Positions 58,082 through 63,399 are shown, numbered from the stretch's first letter. The stretch is DNA of 64,000 bases from Candidatus Cloacimonadota bacterium (GCA_012839325.1 DUNQ01000043.1:1-64000); one strand, 5' to 3'. Made by a program: numbers and translations. The notes: generated from the sequence alone by a model not told the origin.

Positions 58082-59374
58082 TTACTCGCAGATCAATGTG
58101 CCGGCGGTGGCATCTATCACTTTTGCGCGCATGATGCTTCCTATGTCACTCGCGCTTCCGGTTAAAACGCAGATCTTAAAATCGCGGCTCTTACCGGAAA
58201 CTTTCTTTTTGCTTTTCTTGCTGAAGCCTTCTACATAGACTTCAACTTCTTTGCCGATCATTGCTTTATATTTATCAAGTGTGATCTTTCTTTGTAGTTC
58301 AATCATTTCTTGCAATCTTCTTAATCTTTCCGGTTCCTTGACTTGATTTTCATAGCTTGCTGCTTCGGTGCCCTCACGAGGGCTATATTTGAAACAAAAA
58401 GCATAATCGAAGCATATATCACTCATTGCTTGTAAAGTGTCCTTAAATTGCGCCTCAGATTCACCCGGGAAACCGGCAATGAGATCTGTGGTGAGCGCGA
58501 TATCAGGAACAGCTTTACGCAATTTATTGACTATCAGCATGTAATCATCGAAACTGTATGATCTGCTCATACGGCTTAGAACTTCATTGTTGCCGCTTTG
58601 CATGGGCAAATGAATGTGGTTGCACAGCATTGAACTCTCTGCCATAACTTCGATTAGCTCGTCTGATAGGTCTTTTGGATGTGAGGTAATGAATCTCAAT
58701 CTTTCTATATCTGGGAAGTCCTTCTCGATTTGTTTAAGTAACGTCGGAAAGGCTTTATCTTCAAAGAGATAAGAATTCACATTCTGACCCAAAAGTGTGA
58801 TATCGAGCATATTGCTTTTCAGAGCATCTTCGATATCTTTCTTGATATCTGAATATGGCCTGCTTCGCTCTCTGCCACGCACATGCGGGACTATACAATA
58901 TGAACAGAAGTTATTGCAGCCGCGCATGATAGTGATGAAAGCGCAATGTTCTCCCTGATGTTTTGGGATTATCCCTTCATATACCTGATTAAAATCAAAA
59001 TTCAGCTCCGCCCCACAGTCCTCTTTTAAAATTTGCGGCAAGGCGTGATATTGATCTACACCTATGGCAAAATCAATGCCGAGATCTTCGTTAATTAGCC
59101 TCTCCCCAAGTCTTTGCGCCATGCAGCCCAAGATGCCAATCTTTAAACCGGGCTTCTGGATCTTCCTGTGTCTTTCATTAGAAACACGCCCCAACACACG
59201 CTGTTCGGCATGTTCACGCACAGAGCAGGTGTTGAAGAGAATGATATCAGCATTATCAATTGATTCCACTTTCTCATAATCATCGTTATCAAGCACGGAT
59301 ATGATTAGCTCGCTATCAGATACATTCATCTGACAGCCATAAGTTTCTATATAATAATTTTGTTTTATTTTCAT
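58082..59374 (-). CDS. miaB: tRNA-2-methylthio-N6-dimethylallyladenosine synthase
   Basis: The 430-residue radical-SAM methylthiotransferase adds the ms2 group to i6A37 of tRNAs. The N-terminal UPF0004 domain has Cys14, Cys50 and Cys84 (second cluster). The radical-SAM motif is CNNFCSYC (Cys153, Cys157, Cys160), followed by IVPHVRGRERSR and GFPGESEAQF, and a C-terminal TRAM-like domain. HIHLPMQSGNNEVLSRMSR is typical. RimO or MtaB are less likely given the length and motifs. The start overlaps the DAHP synthase stop by 4 nt. Confidence 0.95.
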   Translation of the reverse strand: MKIKQNYYIETYGCQMNVSDSELIISVLDNDDYEKVESIDNADIILFNTCSVREHAEQRVLGRVSNERHRKIQKPGLKIGILGCMAQRLGERLINEDLGIDFAIGVDQYHALPQILKEDCGAELNFDFNQVYEGIIPKHQGEHCAFITIMRGCNNFCSYCIVPHVRGRERSRPYSDIKKDIEDALKSNMLDITLLGQNVNSYLFEDKAFPTLLKQIEKDFPDIERLRFITSHPKDLSDELIEVMAESSMLCNHIHLPMQSGNNEVLSRMSRSYSFDDYMLIVNKLRKAVPDIALTTDLIAGFPGESEAQFKDTLQAMSDICFDYAFCFKYSPREGTEAASYENQVKEPERLRRLQEMIELQRKITLDKYKAMIGKEVEVYVEGFSKKSKKKVSGKSRDFKICVLTGSASDIGSIMRAKVIDATAGTLICE

Positions 59375-60114
59375 TTGAATACGTCTTTATAAGTTTTACT
59401 GAATGATATAATATCCTGCAATTGATCGAGGGCAATAGTTTGTTTAGCATCACAAATACTGCTATCGGGATCAAGATCGCATTCTATCATCAAACCCATT
59501 GCGCCTGCAGCAATTGCAGCTTTTGAGAGTGCGACAACGAAGCGCCTATCCCCTGCTGCGTGTGAAGGATCGACAATTACAGGTTGAGAATAGTTATTTT
59601 GTAGGACAGGAACTGACGATAAGTCAAGCGTGAAGCGGGTTTCTGACTCAAAGGTTCTTATTCCTCTTTCACAAAATATGGTTTTATTATCACCAGACTG
59701 TTTAATATAATTAGAAGCCTCGACCCATTCCTGATAAGTTGTAGAAATCCCGCGCTTTAGGATTATTGGATTATCTACAGCACTCAAAGCCTTTAACAAA
59801 GCATAGTTGTGCATACTTCGAGCTCCGACGGTAAGGATATCAATATGCTCTGCCATAAACTCTATTTTATCGATGCGAGTGACCTCGGAAACCGTCTTTA
59901 TGCCAAGTTCTTTGCCCACTTTTGAAAGTATCTTAACGCCTTCATCGTGCAGTCCTTGAAAGCTTTCACAGCTCGTCCGCATCTTATATGCACCGCCTCT
60001 AAGATATTCAATGCCAAGCTCTTTGAGCGCTTTTGCGGTGGCATAAAGTTTGTCATAACTTTCGATGGTGCATGGACCAGCAATGATCTTGAATGTATTT
60101 ATAAAGTCGCTCAT
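59371..60114 (-). CDS. aroF: DAHP synthase (3-deoxy-7-phosphoheptulonate synthase), type I-beta
   Basis: The 247-residue enzyme condenses PEP and erythrose-4-phosphate, the first step of aromatic amino-acid synthesis. It contains IIAGPCTIES, YLRGGAYKMRTS, LKRGISTTYQEW, CERGIRTFE and the metal-binding DPSHAAGDRRFV. It has neither the N-terminal chorismate-mutase nor ferredoxin-like regulatory domain, so it is the short unregulated form. The related Kdo-8-phosphate synthase is less likely by the RGGAYKMRTS and DPSHAAG wording. It overlaps both neighbours by 4 nt. Confidence 0.9.
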   Translation of the reverse strand: MSDFINTFKIIAGPCTIESYDKLYATAKALKELGIEYLRGGAYKMRTSCESFQGLHDEGVKILSKVGKELGIKTVSEVTRIDKIEFMAEHIDILTVGARSMHNYALLKALSAVDNPIILKRGISTTYQEWVEASNYIKQSGDNKTIFCERGIRTFESETRFTLDLSSVPVLQNNYSQPVIVDPSHAAGDRRFVVALSKAAIAAGAMGLMIECDLDPDSSICDAKQTIALDQLQDIISFSKTYKDVFK

Positions 60115-62036
60115 TTTATAGACCTTGCAAAGCCGTAATTGATGCCGTCGTCATTGAAGCTGAAAGTGTGAATTTCAAATTTAAACATGAGTGCTTTGAG
60201 TATTCTTGCAACATAAAACATCGAAAAATGAGAACGAATTTCTTCATCTTCAACGAGATCTGTTAATAATACCGGGACTTTCAAGTATTCTTTCGTGAGT
60301 AGCAGGTCTTCGATATCATACAAATACTTTGGATCTATCTCATTTCTCATGGAGTGCATTTCCTTGTGAAAGAGCATCGCCGTAAGCCCAATGAGAACAA
60401 TATTATCGATATCTTTAAGCTTCAAGCTGTCTACTGCATTCGTTACAATATCCAAAGTATCTTCATCATTATTGTGAGCTTCGATGAGGCTTACCAAACC
60501 AAAGTCCAATGATACACTTTGCTGTCTACCTGCCTTGTTTAGCCAGGATAGCTCAGTGCTGGTGCCACCTATATCTAAAACAAGATATTTATGGTTGTTA
60601 GATATACTTTCTTCGATGGCTTTCCATCCGTATTGAGCTTCTTTTTTAGCTGTTATAATTTTAGTTTTATAAGCCCAGCGAGATTCGATCCAAGACAAGA
60701 TCTCACAAGCGTTTTCAGCTTTGCGACTAATGCCGGTTGCAATCAGGTGTTTTTCAGACTCTATTTGTGAATCTACCTCAAAGAGAACTTCCAGATTGTT
60801 CTTAGCATTATCAATACTTATTTCTGCAAGCATACCATCAGCAAAGCCACGCGCTAAACCCGTTGTAAGCCACTGTTTATGCAGCTTTATCTTTTTAGTG
60901 TGATTATATAAAAGGTAATTAAAATTATTCGAGCCCAGATCGCATATACTTACTATCTTATCGCTTGGATAGAGCTTCTTAAAGTATCTTGATAAGATCA
61001 TCCCCGCAAGCGCTTCATTTGCAACACACATGGGAACACAATCATCGGCGATATTAGCAAAGATCTCTTGCCAGCTATCCAAATCAACAGGGATACTATC
61101 TATAAGTTGCGCCGCAGGATAATCGTCCAATCCACGAATGAGACAAGGCTCTTCTGGATAGTTCCTGCGTGGCAGATACAGCATTGGCTTGCCCATGGAA
61201 AGCACCTCAGCAAAGCTGCTATAACCAGGTTTACACACGACCAACCTGCTAATCCTGATCAACTCAGAGAAATCCTCGTCTTTAGGAATGCAGACATGAT
61301 TCACTGCATCACAAGCCTCAAAAGGCGACAGAACCACGCCTTGCCAAGCTTCACAGATCACATCAAGCGGCACATCCATCTTGCCCTCGCCGCCGAACAT
61401 AATCAGCAGGATATCAACATCTTGCGAAATAGAATACTTTTTCCTGAGATCCTCTTTAGCACGCCGCTGACGCACAATTAGCCCCACATCTTCGGGATTT
61501 CTGAATCCTGGCAGAGAATTATCACAGCTGCCCGTTTTCAGCCTAAAACTGCCATCCATCCGTCTATATAAGCCATAGATAGTATTGAGGATAGGCTTCA
61601 TCTCGGCATCATCTCTAAATAACTCAGAATAAATAAAATACCAATCAAAATTTGAGACACCGAAAACCGGCACATGAGCATATCCACAGGCTTCAATGAT
61701 GAAATATGGAGCATCCGCCACGACGAGATCAATGCGCTCATCTCTGAGAAATTCAACCTCATGCGCTACGAGCTCTTCACGACGGGTAAATAGCTCTAAA
61801 ATAGCCTCTTTCGTGCGCTTCAGATCGGAGACGAGATTCTCCTTATGCACAACCCCGACATCGATCTGACAATGGCGATACTTCGCAACGCCACCCTCAA
61901 GGTTTTCAAAGAGAAACTTAGGCCTATCCGTGCAAACAAAGACCTCAGCACCAAATCCCATGAATGACGAAGCCAGCGCCGCCATGCGCGTAGCATGCCC
62001 AAAACCGTGATTAGAAGGATATATCGCTATTTTCAT
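60111..62036 (-). CDS. Glycosyltransferase-like / Ppx-GppA-like fusion protein
   Basis: This 641-residue protein joins two domains. Residues 1-355 form a GT-B fold of the kind seen at the N terminus of plant L-arabinokinase: SNHGFGHATRM (7-17), VVADAPYFIIEAC (105-117), and VCKPGYSSFAEVLSMGKPMLYLP (267-289, with the donor-binding region). Residues about 360-640 match the Ppx/GppA family: ICDLGSNNFNYLLYN (364-378), ATGISRKAENACEIL, ITAKKEAQYGW with Glu466 at the catalytic-Glu place, and VLDIGGTSTELSW (486-498). Ppx/GppA enzymes hydrolyse polyphosphate or pppGpp. I do not know this fusion from any characterised protein. It overlaps DAHP synthase by 4 nt. Confidence 0.85.
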   Translation of the reverse strand: MKIAIYPSNHGFGHATRMAALASSFMGFGAEVFVCTDRPKFLFENLEGGVAKYRHCQIDVGVVHKENLVSDLKRTKEAILELFTRREELVAHEVEFLRDERIDLVVADAPYFIIEACGYAHVPVFGVSNFDWYFIYSELFRDDAEMKPILNTIYGLYRRMDGSFRLKTGSCDNSLPGFRNPEDVGLIVRQRRAKEDLRKKYSISQDVDILLIMFGGEGKMDVPLDVICEAWQGVVLSPFEACDAVNHVCIPKDEDFSELIRISRLVVCKPGYSSFAEVLSMGKPMLYLPRRNYPEEPCLIRGLDDYPAAQLIDSIPVDLDSWQEIFANIADDCVPMCVANEALAGMILSRYFKKLYPSDKIVSICDLGSNNFNYLLYNHTKKIKLHKQWLTTGLARGFADGMLAEISIDNAKNNLEVLFEVDSQIESEKHLIATGISRKAENACEILSWIESRWAYKTKIITAKKEAQYGWKAIEESISNNHKYLVLDIGGTSTELSWLNKAGRQQSVSLDFGLVSLIEAHNNDEDTLDIVTNAVDSLKLKDIDNIVLIGLTAMLFHKEMHSMRNEIDPKYLYDIEDLLLTKEYLKVPVLLTDLVEDEEIRSHFSMFYVARILKALMFKFEIHTFSFNDDGINYGFARSIK

Positions 62037-62045
62037 TTTATAAAC

Positions 62046-62414
62046 CTATTGTAGATAAAGTTTGATCTCATCCGAGCTATTCTCAAAGCGTAAAACGAGC
62101 TTATTCGGCATACAGATTATCGGCATGGTATTGCTGAAACCCTGCTTGACACAACGTTTATCGGGACAATCCGAAAAGACAATTCCCGCCTTACTATCCT
62201 TGATTTCGATAGTATTATGCTCATCAATCTCGATGATACGATTTTCAAAGAGATCGTAGCTGCCCCAAAGCCCGGCATCTTTATAGACCAAAACCGAGCT
62301 CCCCTCTCCCCTCTTGCCCGGCAGAAAAAATATAATCGCCAGGATGCAAAATATGATAAGGATTGCGTCCGTGATAGTCAGTGATCTAAAGTATTGCCTA
62401 ATCGAAAATTCCAT
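62046..62414 (-). CDS. NusG domain II-containing membrane-anchored protein
   Basis: The ~122-residue protein has one N-terminal membrane helix (DAILIIFCILAIIFFLPG) and a NusG-II type beta domain with the family signature CPDKRCVKQG (about 80-90) and a C-terminal MPNKLVLRF strand. Members of this family are small extracytoplasmic proteins of unknown role. An ATG at 62414 fits better than a TTG at 62423. The gene overlaps the radical-SAM gene by 17 nt and is 9 nt from the fusion gene. Confidence 0.85.
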   Translation of the reverse strand: MEFSIRQYFRSLTITDAILIIFCILAIIFFLPGKRGEGSSVLVYKDAGLWGSYDLFENRIIEIDEHNTIEIKDSKAGIVFSDCPDKRCVKQGFSNTMPIICMPNKLVLRFENSSDEIKLYLQ

Positions 62415-63399
62415 AAACTTCAAAGCCGCAGTTTGGACACGTTCCGGACTCAGTCAAATAGTTTTCCGTGTACCACACGCTTCGATCTATGAGCAAAGTA
62501 TCACATTCAACGCAGATCGTTTTTGCATGCGTCATACCCGGCAAATTCCCGCCATAGACCCAGTTCAAGGATTCTTTAGCAATATCAATCGCACGGACAA
62601 CATCCTCAGTCTTAGTTGCCGGTATATTAGTGAGATAGGCAGGACGATATGCCGAGATATGCAGCGGAATATCCTTTGATATAGAGGCGATAAATTGCGC
62701 CAAACTCCGCACATCTTCATCGGAATCATTTCTGCCCGGGATCAGCAAGAGAGTGACTTCCAAATGCACCCCGGCATCGAAAACAGTCTTAATCGTATTC
62801 TTTACGGGCTCGATCTTTCCCTGACAGAAATCAGTATAAAAATCATCGCTAAATCCCTTAAGATCTATATTCATAGCCGATATCTTGGGCAAGATCTCCT
62901 TAAGCGGAATCTCGTTGATAAAACCATTTGAGACCATTACGATCTGTACATCCGAATAGGCCTCGGCAAAGTCATAGATAAACTCATACCAGGTAAAAGG
63001 TTCGGTATATGTAAAAGCCACTTGTTTAGGATTCTTATACAGCTTGCAAATCTCCTCATAAAGCAGCGCGGGCTCTATTTCGTGGGTCACCACCTCAAAT
63101 TGAGAGCTTTGATAATTCTGACAATAGTCGCACTTGAGATTACAAGAGTTCGGTCCCAGAGAAGCAATCATGGAACAGGGATGGAAGTGATATAGCGGCT
63201 TTTTTTCAATGGGATCGACGGCTATGCCTATACTTTTACCGTAGTTAGTTGCCCAAAGCTTGCCCTTGATATTCTTTCTCGAACGACAGATTCCGCTCTC
63301 ATTTAATTCCAGGACACAATGATGCGGACACAGTTCACATGCGAGCTTCCCACCCGGGAGCTTCTGGTAATGCATTGCTTCTCTATATACTAAATCCAT
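62398..63399 (-). CDS. amrS: AmmeMemoRadiSam system radical SAM protein
   Basis: The 333-residue radical-SAM protein has CNLKCDYC (Cys86, Cys90, Cys93), an upstream Cys set (CELCPHHC, GICRSR) and a C-terminal CVECDTLLIDR / CPNCGFEVYG zinc-ribbon. This is the layout of AmrS, which works with the Memo and AMMECR1 proteins in a largely uncharacterised system. Memo and AMMECR1 genes are not seen here. It overlaps the Kdo transferase gene by 10 nt. Confidence 0.92.
   Translation of the reverse strand: MDLVYREAMHYQKLPGGKLACELCPHHCVLELNESGICRSRKNIKGKLWATNYGKSIGIAVDPIEKKPLYHFHPCSMIASLGPNSCNLKCDYCQNYQSSQFEVVTHEIEPALLYEEICKLYKNPKQVAFTYTEPFTWYEFIYDFAEAYSDVQIVMVSNGFINEIPLKEILPKISAMNIDLKGFSDDFYTDFCQGKIEPVKNTIKTVFDAGVHLEVTLLLIPGRNDSDEDVRSLAQFIASISKDIPLHISAYRPAYLTNIPATKTEDVVRAIDIAKESLNWVYGGNLPGMTHAKTICVECDTLLIDRSVWYTENYLTESGTCPNCGFEVYGIFD

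Follow-up and report, generated by a model that had tools for sequence, protein, structure and literature searches.

The window analysed here is the whole of a 64,000-nucleotide stretch of DNA from a Candidatus Cloacimonadota bacterium (GCA_012839325.1, DUNQ01000043.1:1-64000). On its minus strand, one open reading frame encodes a protein of 641 amino acids (60111-62036; ATG at 62036, stop codon at 60113-60111) made of two halves: residues 1-355 (60972-62036), a GT1-like GT-B glycosyltransferase (GT) with a linker helix, recognised through alignments, a structural model, and Foldseek; and residues 360-641 (60114-60959), a short-type Ppx/GppA domain (ASKHA), recognised through PF02541, Foldseek, and a profile match. 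An earlier note had proposed this fusion from a handful of motifs and had thought it not obviously decayed. Both points stand. The quoted motifs are found in the frame, which has no internal stop on translation of the minus strand; PF02541 matches the one half, Foldseek assigns a GT-B fold to the other, and the catalytic residues are intact. Comparison of the window's genome (G000) with its closest relative (G001; 73% identical) gives a dN/dS of about 0.10 for the gene as a whole; in the Ppx half by itself dS is saturated, and no ratio is given for it. This comparison shows that the fusion gene is under purifying selection.

An AlphaFold2 model of the whole fusion (27-sequence alignment as input) has a mean pLDDT of 90.5 and a pTM of 0.91. 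Searched with this model, Foldseek ranks Ppx/GppA structures first, then NTPDases and GT-B enzymes. That a sequencing or assembly error, or a frameshift, joined two genes is practically excluded, because the identical junction recurs as a single frame across many independent assemblies, including G020, which was assembled as one contig.

Gene Neighbourhood

The fusion frame is overlapped by 4 bases by a gene on the same strand for DAHP synthase, a type I beta catalytic domain of 247 aa (59371-60114; TIGR01361, 290 bits over cut-off). On the other side, 9 bases upstream, lies a gene for a stand-alone NusG domain II protein (62046-62423, minus; PF07009, 66 bits), and beyond it one for an AmmeMemoRadiSam-system radical SAM enzyme (62398-63399, minus; TIGR04337, 279 bits over cut-off).

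Cloacimonadota families are numbered here: f1 is the window's own, and f2, f3, and so on are the others. The conserved order in f1 is WaaA-like Kdo transferase, AmmeMemoRadiSam radical SAM enzyme, NusG domain II protein, fusion, (DAHP synthase), MiaB, YicC, and RNase R. The radical SAM gene is kept upstream of the fusion in f1, and the fusion starts 6-12 bases after the NusG domain II gene in most f1 loci. In nearly all f1 genomes examined, the NusG domain II gene sits between the other two. The proximity of WaaA hints weakly at a role in envelope glycans.

The Glycosyltransferase Half

Motifs of the GT half are H10-G-F-G-H14-A-T-R17; D59-x-G61; D108; N129-F-D-W-x-F-I-Y136; F214-G-G; K269-P-G-Y-S-S-F-A-E277; and P294-E295. 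Over residues 1-350, scores against two named families fall below their cut-offs: 18.2 bits for Glyco_trans_1_3 (PF13528; cut-off 25), and 36.2 bits for TIGR00661 (MJ1255/VC2487-type; cut-off 195.9). The latter is matched by 23 of 25 relatives, the first member far under the cut-off.

Structure prediction followed by Foldseek supports both the GT-B and the Ppx/GppA assignment. For the N-terminal half, the model was that of a GT-only homologue in G012 (pLDDT 93.3), which matches PcApiGT (3e-13), a macrolide GT (2iya; 1e-12), and YojK (2e-12, with TMq 0.70). The matches are GT1-type GT-B enzymes, many of them UDP-bound, and include macrolide GTs and plant UGTs. Judged by this model, the predicted fold is clearly GT-B. 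Twenty columns are invariant across 25 fused and free GT relatives, among them H10, G11, G13, H14, and R17 in HGFGHATR and those of the KxGYS...E donor loop. We take the H14 position to be that of the N-terminal loop histidine of GT1 and MurG enzymes.

Stand-alone GTs of 354-424 aa, from Cyanobacteria, Pseudomonadota, and Thermodesulfobacteriota, belong to the same family and are likewise sub-threshold to PF13528 and TIGR00661. They share with the fusion residues H10, G11, G13, H14, R17, D59, G61, D108, N129, F130, W132, and Y136, as well as K, G, Y, S, E, and the equivalent of E295. Unlike the fusion, they are never joined to Ppx/GppA in the loci examined; their neighbourhoods outside the phylum contain no conserved partner and no Ppx close by.

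A GT-like N-terminal half is also found in plant L-arabinokinase, where it is fused to a GHMP kinase. Presumably, the HGFGHATR motif and the KxGYxxxxE loop are common to both proteins. They are alike in joining a GT-B-like half to a phosphoryl-transfer domain, but the partner in the plant enzyme is a GHMP kinase, whereas here it is a Ppx/GppA phosphohydrolase. The fusion protein has no GHMP kinase match; Pfam assigns its C-terminal half to Ppx-GppA. Among 198 genomes drawn from the phylum to which a Desulfocapsa relative belongs, no frame combined the GT with a GHMP kinase; the 10 strong matches were all open frames of 364-451 aa.

The Ppx/GppA Half

Several independent comparisons place the C-terminal half in the Ppx/GppA family. 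PF02541 matches residues 400-524 (E=1.2e-19; 71.3 bits, cut-off 27), and all 25 f1 members match it too. The NCBIfam exopolyphosphatase model TIGR03706 matches residues 362-525 at 1e-23, under its own cut-off, and phmmer aligns residues 357-531 to solved Ppx/GppA chains (best E=1.5e-11). A 25-sequence family profile aligns over nearly the full domain (profile positions 16-290) with the Aquifex aeolicus Ppx/GppA (E=3.5e-31), and the best structures by Foldseek are those of A. aeolicus (1t6d; E=3.4e-18) and Helicobacter pylori (6pc1; 1.5e-17). Assignment to a different ASKHA family is ruled out by these Pfam, profile, and Foldseek matches.

The motifs of this half are D366-LGSN370, R438 (the catalytic arginine), E466, D488-I-G490-G-T-S493-T-E495, G513, G550-L-T, and G631. 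All 33 fusions examined have R438, E466, D488, G490, and G491; position 493 is S in 32 of the 33 (one T), and position 495 is E in 31 (one Q, one D). Residues E466, D488, G490, S493, and E495 align with E126, D149, G151, S154, and E156 of Pseudomonas aeruginosa Ppx (paPpx), each of which, when changed to alanine, leaves both activities lost or severely reduced (PMC4631893). The alignment also matches the active-site residues to Mycobacterium tuberculosis Arg84/Glu112 and Asp135/Glu142 (PMC3411833). E466 is presumed to be the general base.

The nearest known counterparts are the A. aeolicus Ppx/GppA (1t6c/1t6d/2j4r) and M. tuberculosis Rv0496 and Rv1026. Like the C-terminal half of the fusion, these consist of a two-lobe domain of about 300 aa; lack the C-terminal domains III-IV of Escherichia coli Ppx; and have the same catalytic residues and motif order. 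Only the Cloacimonadota protein has a GT-B domain in front. It also differs from the canonical Ppx paralogue of Cloacimonadota, since the fusion lineage has N371 for S and lacks the GLR arginine. The Ppx half belongs to a lineage of its own, apart from the canonical Ppx of the cell.

Distribution and History

Matches were found in 91 genomes when 98 relatives were searched, with a full-length single-frame fusion in most f1 genomes. A profile search of 125 Cloacimonadota genomes located the full-length fusion in f1 and also in seven further families of the same order: f2, f3, f4, f5, f7, f8, and f11. (The f4 fusion, in G061, is counted though its first residues are missing at a contig edge.) No fusion outside Cloacimonadota was found in 84,980 species genomes scanned with short peptide patterns, which could miss distant fusions; the GT occurs alone in the three outside phyla named above.

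Within the phylum, f9, f10, and f13 encode the Ppx half as a stand-alone orthologue of about 300 aa that has no GT attached. These proteins score 224-295 bits with the Ppx-half profile, as against 99-195 bits for the canonical Ppx paralogue, which most Cloacimonadota genomes carry beside the fusion. The canonical paralogue was not found in G000, which is 94.9% complete in 147 contigs, so this may be a gap. In the Ppx tree, fusions and stand-alone orthologues form one clade (100/99), and canonical paralogues another (100/99). The f1 fusions are monophyletic, on a long stem, and the fusions of other families are intermixed with stand-alone forms. In the GT tree, the GT halves form a single clade against the outside GTs (100/99). 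The simplest history is that the fusion arose once in Cloacimonadota and that the GT half was lost several times afterwards; a history in which the same GT was gained repeatedly is less likely.

The neighbourhood of the Ppx half has its own history. DAHP synthase adjoins the fusion in the window's genus and in f5, f7, f8, and f11, and comes after the stand-alone Ppx orthologues of f9 and f10. Since it follows the Ppx gene in f5 and f7-f11 too, it is an old neighbour of that half, kept at its side across the order with no evident mechanistic reason for the pairing. The enzyme itself varies: in the window's genus it is the bare catalytic domain, and in f5, f8, and f11 it has 334-336 aa with an extra N-terminal part. 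A gene for an NYN-domain (PF01936) protein of about 270 aa immediately precedes the stand-alone Ppx gene in f9 and the fusion gene in f7 (L142:4338-5150 and L107:3855-4691). This suggests the ancestral order NYN-Ppx-DAHP synthase.

Some individual genes depart from the full-length form. G054 (f6) encodes a 437-aa protein (L141:4240-5553) in which a stub of about 130 aa, resembling an eroded GT N-terminus, precedes an intact Ppx half; it looks like a fusion in the course of losing its GT. The GT motifs are eroded in G059 (f11). G012 (f1) has lost the Ppx half and retains a GT-only variant of 362 aa (L112:1044-2132) that overlaps the start of MiaB; its branch in the GT tree measures 1.14, against mostly 0.2-0.7 for fused GTs. 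Outside the phylum, a contig labelled Rhodopirellula sp. MED697 (L136; NZGD01000290.1) has the gene order and a near-identical GT common to marine Synechococcus, and probably is a mis-binned cyanobacterial contig.

Loss of one half or the other in some lineages means that the two are separable. They might be two independent enzymes, fused by chance inside an operon and co-expressed without functional coupling. The free Ppx of f9, f10, and f13, the free GT of G012 and the outside phyla, and the f6 stub before an intact Ppx half all agree with this reading. We nevertheless consider it rather unlikely, as the fusion has survived deep divergence in f1 and in the seven other families, and AlphaFold2 is confident of the overall arrangement of the halves.

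Pocket Changes in f1

Three positions of the Ppx half set f1 apart. The third glycine of DxGGGSTE (G492 position) is replaced in 24 of 25 sequences (A in 10, F in 7, S in 3, M in 2, T in 1, V in 1); the second glycine of the GGT loop (G551 position) is L in all 25; and R515, which nearly every stand-alone orthologue and non-f1 fusion possesses, is missing from all 25. The window protein has T492 and L551. Fusions of other families keep each loop glycine in 7 of 8 cases, and canonical paralogues keep the third glycine of DxGGGSTE in 22 of 26, the loop glycines being a usual, not an exclusive, trait of the Ppx/GppA family.

Positions 492 and 551 align with paPpx Gly153 and Gly224, both of which contact polyphosphate (polyP) in a docking model (PMC4631893). 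There, Arg304 (the GLR arginine) is a ribose contact (PMC4631893); this arginine is absent across the whole orthologue group, fused and stand-alone. Meanwhile E466, the metal ligand D488, and R438 are invariant in all 25 f1 sequences. With its catalytic residues kept and its loop residues altered, the f1 protein retains the catalytic machinery behind changed substrate loops.

Invariance of these three residues is hard to explain without catalysis. For that reason it seems doubtful that the f1 Ppx half is a ligand-binding regulatory module, such as a nucleotide sensor, that controls the GT and no longer works as a phosphatase. Such a module would fit the lost loop glycines and the long f1 stem. 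It would also fit the uneven divergence of the halves. Within f1, GT halves are on average 46% identical in pairwise comparison and Ppx halves 33%, so that the Ppx half evolves faster, whereas the other families show near-equal values (34% and 33%).

Polyphosphate and (p)ppGpp Gene Content

The classical substrates of Ppx/GppA enzymes have known synthetases, and the gene-content gap described here concerns those known types only. PPK1 (PF02503) exceeds its cut-off in none of the 125 Cloacimonadota genomes (7 of 14 control genomes are positive); PPK2 does so in 1, marginally, the VTC polyphosphate polymerase in 16, and RelA_SpoT in 23. Within f1, the RelA_SpoT domain occurs only in G028 and G030, both times in short frames. 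Among the 37 genomes that have a full-length fusion and a completeness of 90% or more, PPK1 and PPK2 occur in none, VTC in 1 (G033), and RelA_SpoT in 6 (G028, G030, G050, G051, G053, and G056). None of the four markers was found in 30 of these 37, nor in the window's genome, nor in G020, which carries the fusion on a single contig of 2,246,820 bases. As most carriers lack known genes for polyP or pppGpp synthesis, the phosphatase half probably acts on another substrate. A side observation is that this phylum, without PPK1 and in f1 nearly without RelA/SpoT, nonetheless has a second, canonical Ppx/GppA in most genomes.

The earlier note had suggested that the fusion may link an alarmone or polyphosphate signal to glycan or cell-wall precursor levels. 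As a general role this is not supported, given the scarcity of PPK1, PPK2, and RelA_SpoT and the altered substrate loops of f1. The corresponding explanation, that the Ppx half keeps its classical role, hydrolysing pppGpp or polyphosphate and thereby tying such a signal to the attached GT, has in its favour true membership of PF02541, intact catalytic residues, and four genomes outside f1 (G050, G051, G053, and G056) that encode a long RelA/SpoT, three of them with ancestral loops. It is distinctly improbable, in view of the missing synthetases and the f1 pocket.

Pocket change and RelA loss do not coincide exactly. Families f4, f7, and f11 lack RelA_SpoT yet have ancestral loops, and in f2 (G050) a RelA occurs together with altered loops; this mismatch counts against the altered-substrate reading given below.

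Possible Function

We infer activity of both halves, a nucleotide substrate, and coupling between them. The fusion would be a single cytoplasmic protein in which both active sites work. Its N-terminal half would be an inverting, GT1-like GT-B glycosyltransferase, with H14 as the likely base and the KPGYSxxAE loop taking a nucleotide-sugar donor, probably UDP-linked. Its C-terminal half would be a short-type Ppx/GppA phosphohydrolase that, in f1, cleaves the terminal phosphoanhydride of a small nucleotide. Synthetase loss may have freed the f1 domain from alarmone or polyphosphate metabolism. The changed pocket, the kept catalytic residues, and the absence of known synthetases make a small nucleotide the most likely substrate, over polyP or pppGpp. 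A two-active-site protein of this kind, with an altered substrate in f1, is our preferred reading of the gene, although we put its likelihood somewhat below even. Precedent comes from Rv1026, a short Ppx/GppA that hydrolyses ATP and ADP but neither polyP nor pppGpp (PMC3411833). Against two coupled sites stand the Ppx of f9, f10, and f13 without a GT and the G012 GT without a Ppx: neither half strictly requires the other.

The most economical candidate substrate is the NDP product of the GT to which the domain is attached. Clearance of this NDP would relieve product inhibition and pull transfer forward. This narrower idea, of a built-in nucleotide phosphatase clearing the product of its fused GT, is a tentative one, possible rather than probable. 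In yeast, the GDPase Gda1 clears GDP for Golgi glycosyltransferases, and the proposed removal of the GT's nucleotide product by the fusion is analogous.

GDA1/CD39 NTPDases (for example, Legionella NTPDase1) share the ASKHA fold with the Ppx half and are the next Foldseek class after Ppx/GppA. The fusion is not a member of that group; all members scanned match PF02541. Convergence of the f1 pocket on NTPDase motifs (GGAST, ATxGxR) was attractive by eye, but profile scores were not raised: the f1 profile gives E=0.08-0.4 against NTPDase chains, and the canonical paralogue gives 0.005 at best.

Significance

Both domain types were already known, and the fusion is undescribed as far as the open-access literature was searched. 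That literature yielded nothing relevant on such a fusion, on Cloacimonadota and their (p)ppGpp or polyphosphate, or on alternative substrates, though such silence is no proof of absence.

Proteins with a Ppx/GppA domain are routinely labelled exopolyphosphatase or pppGpp phosphohydrolase. In Cloacimonadota, the fusion and, in most genomes, a canonical Ppx are maintained where the genome encodes no known synthetase of polyphosphate or (p)ppGpp. This raises a testable question: what is the work of Ppx/GppA enzymes in cells that lack their textbook substrates? Should the fused half turn out to be a nucleotide phosphatase that serves the glycosyltransferase, bacteria would have, in a single chain, a counterpart of the eukaryotic pairing of Golgi glycosyltransferase and GDPase. 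Such a protein would represent a new means of driving bacterial glycosyl transfer, and would call for caution with automatic annotation.
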